Source: Methylocystis rosea SV97 (lineage in GTDB: Bacteria; Pseudomonadota; Alphaproteobacteria; Rhizobiales; Beijerinckiaceae). Taken from it: 64,000 nucleotides of DNA. The notes below the pieces were generated by a model. The model had not been told where the DNA came from, ran no database searches, and saw only the letters and a program-made list of their open reading frames with translations. The stretch covers positions 1,993,923 through 2,057,922 of the forward strand of contig NZ_KB889963.1 in NCBI RefSeq assembly GCF_000372845.1, in the 5' to 3' direction. The translations under genes were made by a program, and so were the position numbers. This document shows positions 22,882-56,398 of this stretch, piece after piece (within the stretch, counting starts at the first letter, position 1; every line of letters begins with the position of its first letter).

Positions 22882-24792
22882 TTAGCGTCCCGTGAAGTTG
22901 ATTTTTTTCGCCTTATCTTCGTCCCACCACCAGGTCCACAGCACGCCGGTGTCGAACTTCGGCGGGCGCTCGGGCTGGCCGAAGAGATCCCAATAGGCGA
23001 AGCGATGCACCGGATTATACCAGTGCGGGACCCAGTAGCGCTGCGCACGCAAAGCGCGGTCGAGCGCACGGCTGCAGGTGACGAGCTCTTCGCGCGTTTG
23101 CGCCTGGAGCGCTTTTTCAACGAGCGAGTCGATCGCCGGATTGGAGACCCCCGGCAGGTTTCGCGAGCCGGGCACATTGGCGGTCTTCGAACTGAAATAA
23201 GCGCGAAGCTCCTCTCCGGGGTTCCAGCTCATCATCAGCACGTCGTGGACGACGTCGAAGTCAAAGTTTTCAAGTCGCTGCTTGTATTGAGCGGCGTCGA
23301 CGACGCGGATGTGGGCGCTCACTCCGAGAAGCTTCAAATTCTTGATGAAGGGCTGCGTGTGCCGCTCGAAGACGTTGGAATTGTCGAGAAACTCGAATTC
23401 CAGCGGCGTTCCGTCGGGCAAGCATAGAACGCCATCCTTGCGCGTGCAGCCGGCCGCGACGAACAGATCATTCGCCTTTTTGAGCAGGACGCGATCCTGA
23501 CCCGTGCCGTCGGAAACCGGCGCGACGAAGGGCTCGCCAAAAACTTCCGCCGGCAGATCAGCGCGAAAGGGCTCCAGCAGCGCCTTTTCCTGTTCGCTCG
23601 GCAAGCCTTTCGCTTCAAGCTCGGAGTTCTCGAAATAAGACGAGATGCGCTTGTAGGCGTCATACATCAGGTTGCGGCTTGTCCATTCGTAATCGAAGGC
23701 GTAGCCGATCGCTTCGCGCACCCGCGGATCTTTGAAAATCTTGCGGCGCGTGTTGAAGAACCATCCCTGGATCTGCGGAATGTTGTAGTTGGGCGTCGTC
23801 GTTCGCTTGACGCGCCCTTCCTTGAACGCCGGAAAATCATAGCCCGTCGCCCAAACGCGCGCGATGTTTTCCTCTCGCTCGGTGAATGCGCCGGCCTTGA
23901 AGGCTTCGAAGGCGACCTGGCTGTCGCCGAAATATTCGAAGCGCACGACGTCGAAATTGGCCTGACCTGTCGTGATCGGCAGGTCCTTCGCCCAATAGTC
24001 AGGCATGCGATGATAGGCGATGTAACGACCCTGCTCGAAGGCGCCGACCTTGTATGGCCCGGAGCCGAGCGGCGGCTCCATCGTCGTCGCTGCGAAGTCG
24101 CGGTCCTTGTAATAGGCGCGCGAAAAGATCGGCTGACCCACGACGCTGAGCGGCAGATCGCGCGTGCGATCGGGCGCGAAGCGCAGCACCAGAACGTCGT
24201 CGGCCTCCGCTTCGGCGCTTTCGAGGTCACGCAGCATCTGGCTGATGACCGGATGGCCCTTGCTCTTGAGAATGTTGAGCGAAAAGGCGGCGTCATGCGC
24301 CGTGAGCGGCGAGCCGTCGTGGAAGCGCGCCTCTTTACGCAACAGAAAGGCGTAAGTGAGCTTGTCGGGCGAGATGCGCACCTTCTTGGCGACGAGGCCG
24401 TAGTAGGCGTCGCGTTCGTCGAGGCTCTGATTCATCAGACTGTCGAAGACGAGCGTCATGCCCGTCGCCGGATTGCCCCGCAGCACATAGGCGTTGAAAC
24501 TGTCGTAGGTCGAGCTTGCCGGCGACAGCGCCAATGTCCCTCCCTTGGGGGCTTTTGGATTTACGTAGCCGAAATATTTGAAGTCGGCCGGCTCGCCAAG
24601 GTCGCCAAAGGTCGAAAGGCCGTGGCTCTCGACTTCGCCCTGCGCGAGCGGGCCGAAGCGATTGGAGGCGGCGGTCGGCGCTCCGGGCTTGGCCAGCACG
24701 CGCGGCGCGATCAAGGCGGCGGCGCCGGCGCCGATAACAGAGCGACGGGACAGGCGAATGCGCGTCAGATCGACGATTGTGGAATGAGCCAA
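22882..24792 (-). CDS. yejA: Peptide ABC transporter substrate-binding protein YejA (Tat signal)
   Basis: A family 5 extracellular solute-binding protein of 636 residues. Binding-protein blocks include FGYVNPKAPKGGTLALSPAS, GSGPYKVGAFEQGRYIAYHR and MSWNPGEELRAYFSSKTANV. I choose TTG at 24792, about seven bases after GAGG, because it leaves a short basic N-region followed by RLSRRSVIGAGAAALIAP, a twin-arginine signal; no ATG or GTG fits as well. The protein would be exported folded to the periplasm. YejA systems import oligopeptides and microcin C. First gene of yejABEF. Confidence 0.9.
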   Translation of the reverse strand: MAHSTIVDLTRIRLSRRSVIGAGAAALIAPRVLAKPGAPTAASNRFGPLAQGEVESHGLSTFGDLGEPADFKYFGYVNPKAPKGGTLALSPASSTYDSFNAYVLRGNPATGMTLVFDSLMNQSLDERDAYYGLVAKKVRISPDKLTYAFLLRKEARFHDGSPLTAHDAAFSLNILKSKGHPVISQMLRDLESAEAEADDVLVLRFAPDRTRDLPLSVVGQPIFSRAYYKDRDFAATTMEPPLGSGPYKVGAFEQGRYIAYHRMPDYWAKDLPITTGQANFDVVRFEYFGDSQVAFEAFKAGAFTEREENIARVWATGYDFPAFKEGRVKRTTTPNYNIPQIQGWFFNTRRKIFKDPRVREAIGYAFDYEWTSRNLMYDAYKRISSYFENSELEAKGLPSEQEKALLEPFRADLPAEVFGEPFVAPVSDGTGQDRVLLKKANDLFVAAGCTRKDGVLCLPDGTPLEFEFLDNSNVFERHTQPFIKNLKLLGVSAHIRVVDAAQYKQRLENFDFDVVHDVLMMSWNPGEELRAYFSSKTANVPGSRNLPGVSNPAIDSLVEKALQAQTREELVTCSRALDRALRAQRYWVPHWYNPVHRFAYWDLFGQPERPPKFDTGVLWTWWWDEDKAKKINFTGR

Positions 24793-27971: not shown

Positions 27972-28010
27972 CCTCTCCCCGCTTGCGGGGAGAGGTGAGG
28001 TGAGGGGCCT
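27972..28010 (+). repeat. Palindromic repeat, left copy flanking DUF559 gene 1
   Basis: CCTCTCCCCGC (27972-27982) and GCGGGGAGAGG (27985-27995) form a perfect 11-bp stem with a two-base loop, followed by the arm TGAGGTGAGGGGCC (27996-28009). The same unit occurs in inverted orientation at 28412-28453 on the other side of the gene. Confidence 0.9.
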
Positions 28011-28026
28011 GGTGATTGCCGGAAAA

Positions 28027-28386
28027 CTATCCGCTCTCATGCAGGGCCGCCAAGATGGCCTCAACGACAGCATCCGCATTTTCATAGAGCTGCGCATTGT
28101 TGAAACGGATGACACTATAGCCCTGAGACTGAAGAAAATCTGTCCGCATAGTGTCGTGCGCGATCTCCGCGGCGCTCGAATGGGTTTCGCCATCGATTTC
28201 CACGATCAGGCTGCGCTGACGACACAGGAAATCTGCAATGTAGGGACCGACTGGCGCCTGTCTTATGAATTTGAATCCGCCGAGCGCCCTGTTCTGCAGG
28301 CGCTTCCATAGGAGGCGCTCGGCGCTTGTGGCGTCGCGCCGGAGGGCGCGTGCGCGGCGCGTTTCCAGTATGCGCAGGCCTCTCAT
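28027..28386 (-). CDS. DUF559 endonuclease-like protein (copy 1)
   Basis: A 119-residue DUF559 protein, a Vsr/PD-(D/E)XK-like nuclease family. The family core is visible: TSAERLLWKRLQNRALGGFK, then YIADFLC (Asp52), LIVEIDGETH (Glu63, His69) and YSVIRFNNAQL. These match the predicted nuclease acidic residues. The gene sits alone between two inverted palindromic repeats, 16 bases from the left copy and 26 from the right. That packaging recurs around a second DUF559 gene at 55.9 kb. Cellular role is unknown; see findings. Confidence 0.88.
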   Translation of the reverse strand: MRGLRILETRRARALRRDATSAERLLWKRLQNRALGGFKFIRQAPVGPYIADFLCRQRSLIVEIDGETHSSAAEIAHDTMRTDFLQSQGYSVIRFNNAQLYENADAVVEAILAALHESG

Positions 28387-28411
28387 CCGTCGTTCGCTTC
28401 GCTAAATCCCC

Positions 28412-28453
28412 TGGCCCCTCACCTTACCTCTCCCCGCTCTCCGCGGGGAGAGG
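28412..28453 (-). repeat. Palindromic repeat, right (inverted) copy flanking DUF559 gene 1
   Basis: GGCCCCTCACCTTA (28413-28426) is the reverse complement, with one mismatch, of the arm at 27996-28009. It is followed by CCTCTCCCCGC (28427-28437), a five-base loop and GCGGGGAGAGG (28443-28453), the same 11-bp stem as the left copy. The two copies are therefore inverted repeats bounding a unit of about 480 bases. Confidence 0.9.
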
Positions 28454-54106: not shown

Positions 54107-55672
54107 ATGTCGACGCCTGCGCTGAAAATTTACAATACGCTGAGCCGGACGAAGGAGGAATTCCGTCCGATCGATCCCGCGCATGTGCGCATGTATGTCT
54201 GCGGACCGACGGTCTACGACTACGCGCATATCGGCAACGCCCGGCCGCTCATCGTTTTCGACGTGTTGTTTCGCTTGTTGCGCCACCTCTACGGCGCCGA
54301 GCATGTCACATACGTCCGCAACATCACCGACGTCGACGACAAGATCAACGCGCGCGCCGCGGAGCGCGGAATTTCCATTCGCGATCTGACGGAAGAGACC
54401 AACAAGGTTTTCCAGCAGGACGTGAAGGCGCTCGGCTGTCTCGAGCCGACGATGCAGCCGCGCGCGACCGAGCATATCGCGCAGATGATCGCGATCATTG
54501 AACGCCTGATCGCCGCCGGCCACGCCTATGCGGCCGATGGCCATGTGCTGTTCGACGTGCCGTCCATGCAAAATTACGGACGCCTGTCGCGGCGCTCGCT
54601 CGATGAAATGTTGGCCGGCGCGCGCGTCGACGTCGCGCCTTATAAGCGCGGCGACATGGATTTCGTGCTGTGGAAGCCCTCAAAGGAGAACGAGCCCGGT
54701 TGGGACAGCCCATGGGGCAGGGGGCGTCCCGGCTGGCATATCGAATGTTCGGCGATGTCCTGGGCGCATCTTGGCGAAACCTTCGACATTCACGGCGGCG
54801 GCATCGACCTCGTCTTCCCGCATCACGAAAACGAGATCGCGCAAAGCTGCTGCGCCTTCGGGCAAGATGTAATGGCGAATTACTGGATGCATAACGGCTT
54901 CCTGCAGGTCGAGGGCGAGAAAATGTCCAAGAGCCTGGGGAATTTCGTGACGATCCACGAGCTACTGCATACAGAGAAGTTTGGCGGCAGAGGCTGGCAC
55001 GGTCCAGTGTTGAGATTCGCGATGCTGCGCACGCATTATCGCCAGCCGATCGATTGGACGGTGAAGGCGCTAGAGGAGGCGCACGCAGAGCTCCAAGAGT
55101 GGACGAATTTGCTCGCAAATCGTGCTGCTGAAGCAGAATATCGTGTACATGCGAGCCTGCTACAGCCTAACGAAAAAGTAATGGCTGCTCTTTGCGACGA
55201 TCTGAACACTCCCCAAGCAATTAGCGAATTGAGAGCGCTTGCTCGATCAAAGGTCCATGAGGATCAAGTGTCACTCTTGGATACCTGTATATTCTTGGGG
55301 ATCGTGAATCCAGAAAGAATGTTCATTCTAAACCCTTACCACGTGGGGGAGAGCGTTCTTGCGTCAAGTGATGTGATGCGACGGCTCGATGAGCTTCAAA
55401 TTGCTTTCGCGAACAACAACGAAGAACGCCAGAGAGCGATAACTGAGGAATTAAAGGAACAAGGGGTTGAAGCCGACGTCAGGCATACCGGATCGGTCAG
55501 TTACAAAATATGTGGTACAGACAAGGTCGGGGAATTAATTCATCTACGCAACGCCGCCCGCGCTACAAAAAACTGGGCCGAGTCCGATCGCATCCGCGAC
55601 GAACTCGCCGCTATGGGCATCGCCCTCAAGGACAATAAGGACGGCACGACGACCTGGGAGGTGAAGCGGTGA
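54107..55672 (+). CDS. cysS: Cysteinyl-tRNA synthetase (mosaic 3' region)
   Basis: A 521-residue class I synthetase that charges tRNA-Cys. Zinc and ATP motifs are present: [19 protein letters not shown] (HIGH-like HIGN), [20 protein letters not shown], and KMSKSLGNF. The last blocks [20 protein letters not shown] and GTTTWEVKR are normal. Between about 55085 and 55560 codon use and GC content change: a hand count of 55141-55260 gives 59 G+C in 120 bases, against 37 of 60 at 54661-54720. The frame stays open and residues fit the family, suggesting homologous replacement of this segment from a lower-GC donor. Confidence 0.95.
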
Positions 55673-55680
55673 GCGCTCTT

Positions 55681-55863
55681 TCCCCCACCCGTCGCGCTTC
55701 GCGCGCCACCCTCCCCGCAGGGGGGAGGGATAGGAACGGCGCGACTCGGCGTAGCGATCACGCGCTCATGCGAGGCATTTTGCATGAAGTTTTGCGTTTC
55801 GTTGATGCAGGCCCATCCCTCCCCTTGACGGGGAGGGTGGTTCGCGAAGCGAACCGGGTGGGG
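55681..55863. repeat. Composite inverted-repeat element, copy A (upstream of DUF559 gene 2)
   Basis: The left arm (CCCCCACCCGTCGCGCTTCG and the following CGCGCCACCCTCC) and the right arm (GGGTGGTTCGCGAAGCGAAC, then CGGGTGGGG) are inverted copies of each other, enclosing a CCGCAGGGGGGAGGGA segment and a less conserved core. Copy B at 56240-56398 has the same arms and the same GGGAGGGAT-AGAACGGCGCG-CTCGGCGTA core in direct orientation. Confidence 0.88.
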
Positions 55864-55871
55864 TGACGGAC

Positions 55872-56225
55872 ATGGCCAACCCGCGCGCGCGCGAACTGCG
55901 CAAGAACATGACGCCGCAAGAGGTGAAGCTCTGGTCGCAATTGCGCCTGCTGCGTCCGCAGGGATTTCATTTTCGTCGCCAGGTTTCGCTTGAAGGGTAT
56001 GTGCTCGATTTCGTGTGCTACAAATATCGCTTGATCATTGAAGCTGACGGTTCACAGCACGGCGAAGCTGACGGGCGCCGTCATGACGCTAGGCGCGACG
56101 CGATTTTTCGAGCGAACGGCTTTCATGTGCTGCGCTTCTGGAATCACGAGATCGACGCCAACCTGATCGGCGTCGTGGAGACCATCGTCGCCCGAGCGAA
56201 GGAACATTTGCGGGCGGCGTCGTGA
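55872..56225 (+). CDS. DUF559 endonuclease-like protein (copy 2)
   Basis: A 117-residue DUF559 protein starting MANPRARELRKNMTPQEVKL. The nuclease-like core is GFHFRRQVSLEGYVLDFVCY (Asp46), RLIIEADGSQHGEADGRRHD (Glu57, His63) and GFHVLRFWNHEIDANLIGVV. It is clearly related to, but diverged from, the copy at 28.0 kb. It begins 9 bases after composite repeat A and ends 15 bases before copy B. No partner gene for a restriction or mismatch-repair system is adjacent. Confidence 0.9.
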   Translation: MANPRARELRKNMTPQEVKLWSQLRLLRPQGFHFRRQVSLEGYVLDFVCYKYRLIIEADGSQHGEADGRRHDARRDAIFRANGFHVLRFWNHEIDANLIGVVETIVARAKEHLRAAS

Positions 56226-56239
56226 GAAGCGCTGACGTC

Positions 56240-56398
56240 TCCCCCACCCGGCGCGCTTCGCGCGCCACCCTCCGCGCAAGGGGGAGGGATCAGAACGGCG
56301 CGGCTCGGCGTAACGATGGAACGCTTACGCAAGGCGAGATTTGTGATTTCTTGCGTTTCGAGCATGCAAGGGTGGTTCGCGAAGCGAACCGGGTGGTG
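56240..56398. repeat. Composite inverted-repeat element, copy B (downstream of DUF559 gene 2)
   Basis: Left arm CCCCCACCCGGCGCGCTTCG (from 56241) and right arm GGGTGGTTCGCGAAGCGAAC (56370-56389) plus CGGGTGG are inverted; the core shares GGGAGGGAT and AGAACGGCGCG with copy A. Copies A and B are direct repeats that bracket the DUF559 gene; copy B is a little shorter and lacks the CCCTCCCCTTGACGGGG segment of copy A. Confidence 0.88.

Follow-up and report, generated by a model that had tools for sequence, protein, structure and literature searches.

We characterized a 64,000-nucleotide stretch of the Methylocystis rosea SV97 genome (contig NZ_KB889963.1; the whole stretch is called the window here), in which a DUF559 (PF04480) nuclease gene lies between two copies of a composite inverted-repeat element. 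On the sample of genomes surveyed, the association of DUF559 genes with bracketing repeats is established: the left and right flanks resembled each other at 71 of 98 DUF559 loci from related genomes, compared with 1 of 415 shifted positions at the same loci. We lean towards the view that DUF559 is a dedicated partner nuclease of intrastrand-triplex (BoxC/PIT/TM) repeats, the gene and its bracket together forming a selfish unit.

The window gene occupies 55872..56225 on the forward strand and encodes 117 amino acids from its likely start, ATG 55872; the open reading frame as listed (55863-56225) begins at a GTG at 55863, within a repeat arm. It matches the PF04480 profile with an E value of 8.7e-36 and 122.6 bits, above the curated cut-off of 20.6. 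As proposed in a preliminary description of this DNA, the gene lies between two direct elements with inverted arms. The upstream element E1 (55681..55866, forward strand, 186 nt) consists of two inverted arms of about 47 nt with an 87-nt spacer; 55683-55734 and 55812-55863 are 81% complementary over 52 nt. Its left arm (55683..55729, forward) carries a CCCC(A)CCC third strand, an inner hairpin and a CCCTCCCC..GGGGGAGGG hairpin, and its right arm (55817..55863, reverse) faces the gene. The downstream element E2 (56240..56397, forward, 158 nt) is a direct copy of E1, with 79% of positions identical in the first 129 nt and all of them (100%) in the last 28 nt. It retains a left arm (56242..56288, forward) and, at 56369..56396 on the reverse strand, a 28-nt right-arm remnant identical to E1; the right arm is partly deleted and the hairpin kept there in the relative L069 is gone. 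When up to 3 mismatches were allowed, the two arm patterns were confined to E1 and E2 within the window, save for one 3-mismatch match at 23706.

Our DUF559 survey covered 61 related genomes, 37 of them from the genus. A profile search listed 109 matches, which gave 98 non-redundant loci after merging of pieces and identical copies. Fragments such as L143-L149 and L152 were counted among these, L150 (two short pieces) was filtered, and L151 (without a profile match), G013:C218, G030:C20:76119, G035:C53 and G038:C91 were left out. We defined the bracket score as the best local alignment between the left and right 400-nt flanks, with a cut of 60, used for the figures given above, and a looser cut of 45. 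Among genus loci, 63 of 80 were bracketed, 32 by direct and 31 by inverted repeats. As additional controls we used PIN and GNAT genes, 53 of 60 loci being uncut at contig ends; 1 of 25 PIN and 0 of 28 GNAT genes were bracketed (1/53 together), with the limit that PIN and GNAT genes often lie in operons and shifted positions are mostly coding, so that both are an inexact match to the flanks of stand-alone intergenic genes. A wider scan of named genomes, mostly Proteobacteria by title, used the best 80 of at least 555 confirmed loci and is therefore no random sample. After removal of L283 (a left-flank index artefact with a score of 800), 25 of the remaining 79 loci reached 60 and 46 reached 45, compared with 6 and 10 of 824 shifted positions, which still include the six of L283. 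When either a one-side hairpin or a score of 45 was accepted as a repeat, 92 of 96 related and 74 of 79 wider-scan loci were positive. The survey suggested in the preliminary description therefore supports a general association of DUF559 with repeats (71/98 related and 46/79 wider-scan loci against low controls). Simple duplication of an element on either side of the gene, also raised there, is insufficient as an explanation, given how often brackets recur around unrelated DUF559 genes. DUF559 presence is patchy (40/61 genomes), with up to 7 matches per genome associated with different repeats, and some copies are broken as judged by stop counts and split profile matches. In three order relatives (L062, L120 and L136), the DUF559 domain lies inside long open frames of 618-818 amino acids that are possibly fusions.

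In sequence, the bracket repeats belong to numerous families, many of which contain a loop between a pyrimidine and a purine arm. Pyrimidine/purine hairpins flank both sides of 50/96 and 36/78 DUF559 genes in the two sets, compared with 0/818 shifted positions and 0/53 PIN/GNAT genes. Further, a mirror image of the purine arm lies near 149/193 and 90/151 hairpins in DUF559 flanks, as opposed to 5-7% with shuffled flanks. Judged from its sequence, this combination of hairpin and mirror third strand is the intrastrand triplex motif class (BoxC/PIT/TM_ECO). Like hairpins away from DUF559 at the same wide-scan loci carry the third strand equally often (47/72), which makes it a feature of the class as a whole rather than of the copies at DUF559 only. 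The two repeat types reported in the preliminary description do differ in sequence; they belong, however, to this one class and are not mere palindromes. The density of the exact TM_ECO consensus in DUF559 regions (21 in 91 kb) is 25-fold that of the remaining sequence at the same loci (7 in 771 kb), and in its E. coli form with a 3-nt second loop the consensus occurs within 400 nt of just 3/98 and 8/79 DUF559 loci. A relaxed TM_ECO form was found within the same distance of 35/98 and 29/79 loci compared with 2/53 PIN/GNAT genes. By this comparison, the DUF559 bracket repeats share the class architecture of TM_ECO and are mostly not of the E. coli subfamily.

In E. coli K-12 MG1655, ycjD (b1289, annotated DUF559) lies between fabI and sapF, and the ycjD-fabI interval carries a motif at 1,351,204-1,351,239 that is entry 9 of the published TM_ECO table. 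We take YcjD to be the only DUF559 protein of K-12. The motif is one-sided, with none on the other side of the gene, and the ycjD flanks of strain KE47 do not match each other (scores 28 and 20); E. coli therefore shows adjacency and not a bracket. The PF04480 profile gave no match in the control E. coli genome despite the DUF559 annotation of ycjD in MG1655. TM_ECO 9 is the sole listed motif in MG1655 between 0.62 and 3.05 Mb, and a 70-base query around it had a median of 14 match places per E. coli genome.

To describe the arm population, the source genome (3.9 Mb) was scanned with R1, a covariance model of the arm of E1 and E2 (family F1). R1 gave 66 matches, with the gene-facing arm of E1 as the top-scoring one (70.2 bits) and the left arm of E2 also recognized; after six overlapping rows that were partial or low-scoring and one further overlap had been set aside, 59 arms were left. 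These form 24 inverted doublets and 11 singlets, while 0.18 close pairs would be expected. Dispersed arms that mostly occur as inverted doublets are explained neither by chance nor by local duplication alone. Doublet orientation is strongly uneven, 22 pointing one way and 2 the other, and E1 belongs to the rarer orientation. The inner hairpin shows compensatory changes in 3 pairs among 22 F1a arms (17 cells changed on both sides) and in 5 pairs among 13 F1b arms (24 such cells). Neither cell count nor covariation score was reached by any of 500 shuffles in either group, whereas cruder measures were weaker: 10 and 50 of 500 shuffles did as well on the number of such pairs, and 499 and 157 on the number of pair types. 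Since the outer hairpin is near-invariant, the covariation test is uninformative there. Both the PIN/GNAT controls and the count of 59 arms in 3.9 Mb rule out that the repeats are ubiquitous intergenic elements, the outcome that the preliminary description had named as speaking against its proposal. Beside F1 arms at L030, a long minus-strand frame (1227-2501) contains in-frame repeat-like peptides (PLEGEGR- and PLPASGER-like), as if repeats had entered a coding gene.

Repeat type follows DUF559 type. We compared 3487 pairs among 87 DUF559 genes in non-orthologous surroundings and counted brackets as alike at a similarity score of at least 60. Of the 30 pairs whose proteins were at least 70% identical, 80% had like brackets; these pairs are not independent (mostly L106, L040 and L041), and L040 accounts for most of those scoring below 60. 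The proportion was 46% of 159 pairs at 55-70% identity, 3.4% of 1934 pairs at 45-55% and 1.3% of 1309 pairs at 35-45%, with none among 55 pairs below this range. Because repeat type follows DUF559 type in this way, DUF559 likely acts on the repeats. The number of F1 arms also rises with the number of DUF559 matches (rho 0.77 for the 37 genus genomes, 0.71 for the 30 genomes of at least 3 Mb), a correlation that ignores phylogeny and uses arm counts from the best 100 candidates per genome.

The site beside cysS, where the window gene resides, could be assigned a state in 29 of the 37 genus genomes. An element-gene-element arrangement is present in 11 of them (G000, G001, G008, G015, G016, G018, G020, G026, G030, G031 and G036), a gene remnant in G006, and a single element in seven (G010, G017, G021, G024 in part, G025, G033 and G034). 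Three genomes (G004, G005 and G032) carry another repeat family together with a reversed, different DUF559 gene, five (G002, G022, G023, G028 and G035; loci L065, L066, L070, L074 and L076) have another palindrome (GTCATGGCCGGGCTTGTCCCGGCCATCCACG), and G009 and G027 are repeat-free. The palindrome of L065, L066 and L070 resembles CGTC-tagged REPs. In G017, the single element has the appearance of a recombinant between E1 and E2, a change that could have run in either direction: its first 60 nt are 98.3% identical to the upstream element of G026 and 93.3% to the downstream one (1 compared with 4 differences only), while the remainder is 96.9% identical to the downstream and 74.2% to the upstream element. 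No hybrid pattern was seen in the single element of G021, which is about equally close to E1 and E2 of five relatives. Recombination between direct copies has probably occurred at the cysS site. Just upstream of E1, a central segment within the 3' half of cysS (window 55150-55530) is 99% identical to G016 and had no blastn match in 16 other relatives, in which the neighboring cysS segments are 81-96% identical, indicating a mosaic segment. The L006 site (C1:3297801) holds an F1 element in G000 and G015 and an element of another family in G018; from its occupants, this intergenic site is repeatedly colonized.

Two further DUF559 genes were found in the source genome by profile search, giving three in total. 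Their left and right flanks score 66 (locus 1) and 50 (third gene), compared with 138 for the window gene. At locus 1, also within the window, the bracket is formed by inverted copies of a repeat other than that of E1 and E2. The left repeat (27972..28017, forward) comprises a CCTCTCCCCGC..GCGGGGAGAGG hairpin plus a tail, GGTGAGGGG; it is followed by the DUF559 gene (28027..28386, reverse, 119 amino acids) and the inverted right repeat (28405..28453, reverse). In relatives, this site is filled in G000 and G004 and holds a remnant in G013, and F1-arm matches occur there in several others. The window gene itself is neighbored by cysS (54107-55672) on one side and by a small open reading frame, then further genes, on the other.

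The fold of DUF559 is nearest to the homing endonuclease I-Bth0305I and to Vsr, i.e. of PD-(D/E)XK/Vsr type, with a profile match to I-Bth0305I at an E value of 5e-4. Ten residues are invariant in 86 DUF559 proteins (R10, E17, W21, R36, D46, E57, D59, G60, H63 and R88). A known defense gene was ruled out; PADLOC gave just a 17.6-bit match to DpdF.

In the mechanism we favor, a Vsr/homing-type DUF559 nuclease would nick or cut its cognate repeat, probably while replication leaves the repeat extruded or single-stranded; recognition by the nuclease may involve the third strand. Repair by recombination against other repeat copies would then spread gene and repeats, amounting to homing into a dispersed repeat; the same recombination could alternatively remove the gene again. 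We infer this homing-like route as the simplest one that accounts together for a Vsr/EDxHD nuclease, brackets of both orientations, the occurrence of states with and without the gene at a single site, and broken copies. The preliminary description had suggested that DUF559 nucleases associate with, or spread by, palindromic repeats; co-movement or replacement is shown by the coupling at unrelated loci and by presence and absence at cysS, and spreading by the repeats is inferred.

Several observations weigh against DUF559 as a dedicated partner of the repeats, besides the inexact controls, the non-independent close pairs, the phylogeny-blind correlation and the one-sided E. coli motif given above. 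Left and right flanks paired across different DUF559 loci also match in 34 of 584 cases, because repeat families are shared. Five of the 79 wider-scan loci lack both hairpin and bracket (two of them, L250 and L267, match the relaxed TM form), and L040 has no upstream element although it is 84-90% identical to five bracketed-family genes. F1 arms are present in genomes free of DUF559 (20 in G022, 23 in G025 and 30 in G028) and in G010, G011 and G024, whose sole DUF559 gene is differently bracketed. In case of the homing-like route, confidence is lowered because no clean empty site was found at locus 1, the L006 element, L041 or cysS. The L041 insertion point has no arm in the 10 relatives read, where the left flank is unrelated, and target duplications were not seen by eye at E1/E2, L006 or L041, where a clean empty/filled pair for comparison is lacking. 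Finally, the Caulobacter DUF559 protein VsrA has been given a mismatch-repair reading (PMC12907096).

It seems unlikely that DUF559 behaves in a RAYT-like manner, as a transposase-like enzyme that excises and inserts inverted, REPIN-like doublets and its own gene via a DNA intermediate and not by recombination. Its fold is that of a PD-(D/E)XK/Vsr nuclease, and we know of no strand-transfer chemistry among the nearest relatives of this fold. Neither target duplications nor defined ends were seen, and the brackets of the 63 genus loci are divided between 32 direct and 31 inverted ones. The doublet organization with 22 of 24 in one orientation and the coupling between gene and repeat seen at unrelated loci would fit such an enzyme, as would the compensatory changes, which have also been described for REPINs (PMC3116915). 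The Y1_Tnp (PF01797, RAYT-type) profile had 0 matches in the source genome, ruling out a RAYT/IS200 transposase as mover of the repeats there; of the 37 genus genomes, 8 had matches, as did 14 of all 61 genomes.

We give little credence to the possibility that DUF559 genes are passengers, that is, cargo of repeats spread by slippage or other enzymes, or genes that tolerate the same intergenic sites. Repeats do occur in genomes without DUF559, one intergenic site can be taken by different repeat families in different species, and the third strand is as frequent in class hairpins away from DUF559 (47/72). However, PIN and GNAT genes are bracketed in just 1 of 53 cases, the type of repeat goes with the type of DUF559 protein even at unrelated loci, and the source genome has no Y1 transposase match. 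A housekeeping role, in which DUF559 would be a Vsr-like repair or structure-processing nuclease that relieves replication stalled at triplex repeats and whose expression is controlled by the adjacent repeats, appears similarly improbable. It would agree with the Vsr fold, with the link of Caulobacter VsrA to the DNA damage response and cytosine methylation (PMC12907096) and with the report that BoxC motifs are unstable loci that block polymerase in vitro (PMC4666352). In contrast, presence in 40 of 61 genomes, broken copies and the occurrence of as many as 7 matches, with different repeats, in one genome are the pattern of a selfish gene and not of a conserved repair gene.

BoxC/PIT/TM repeats have been known since the 1990s and DUF559 is a large family of unknown role. 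A link between the two would provide a candidate enzyme for the repeats and a candidate substrate for the enzyme, testable in E. coli K-12, for which the positions of ycjD and of all 23 motifs have been mapped. Our literature search, whose coverage was incomplete and did not extend to subscription papers on BoxC/PIT, did not find the DUF559-repeat link in print; in a text search for CCCTCTCCC, the matches listed were all unrelated. More tentatively, and with somewhat more doubt than conviction, the system might represent a mobile element of a new kind, built on a stand-alone nuclease of Vsr/EDxHD type that would home into dispersed intrastrand-triplex repeats and keep a genome-wide target population, from BoxC/YcjD of E. 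coli to many proteobacteria. If true, DNA triplexes would have a dedicated enzyme.

Compared with known systems, DUF559 shares the fold of the catalytic domain with EDxHD homing endonucleases such as I-Bth0305I. It differs as a stand-alone single domain of about 117 amino acids that lies outside introns and is without the DNA-binding extension of that family, as far as the accessible part of its description goes (PMC3943268). For VsrA of Caulobacter, bracketing repeats are not mentioned in the portion of the report available (PMC12907096). REP/REPIN-RAYT systems are similar in that their palindromic repeats are dispersed, occur mostly as inverted doublets and show compensatory changes, and in that a nuclease gene has repeats of its own type beside it. 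They differ in that their enzyme is a HUH Y1 transposase, whereas here the gene is a PD-(D/E)XK/Vsr-type DUF559, the repeats are triplex-type motifs and the source genome is without a Y1_Tnp match. For BoxC/PIT/TM_ECO, the accessible part of the published account gives 23 copies in MG1655 and presence in more than 260 genomes, with function not established, no mobility genes found around the motifs and no gene association reported (PMC4666352). The repeats described here share with this class the pyrimidine arm, purine arm and mirror purine third strand, the inverted pairs, the intergenic location and the wide distribution, while the second loop of F1 is a covarying hairpin of 17-19 nt compared with the 3 nt of TM_ECO.
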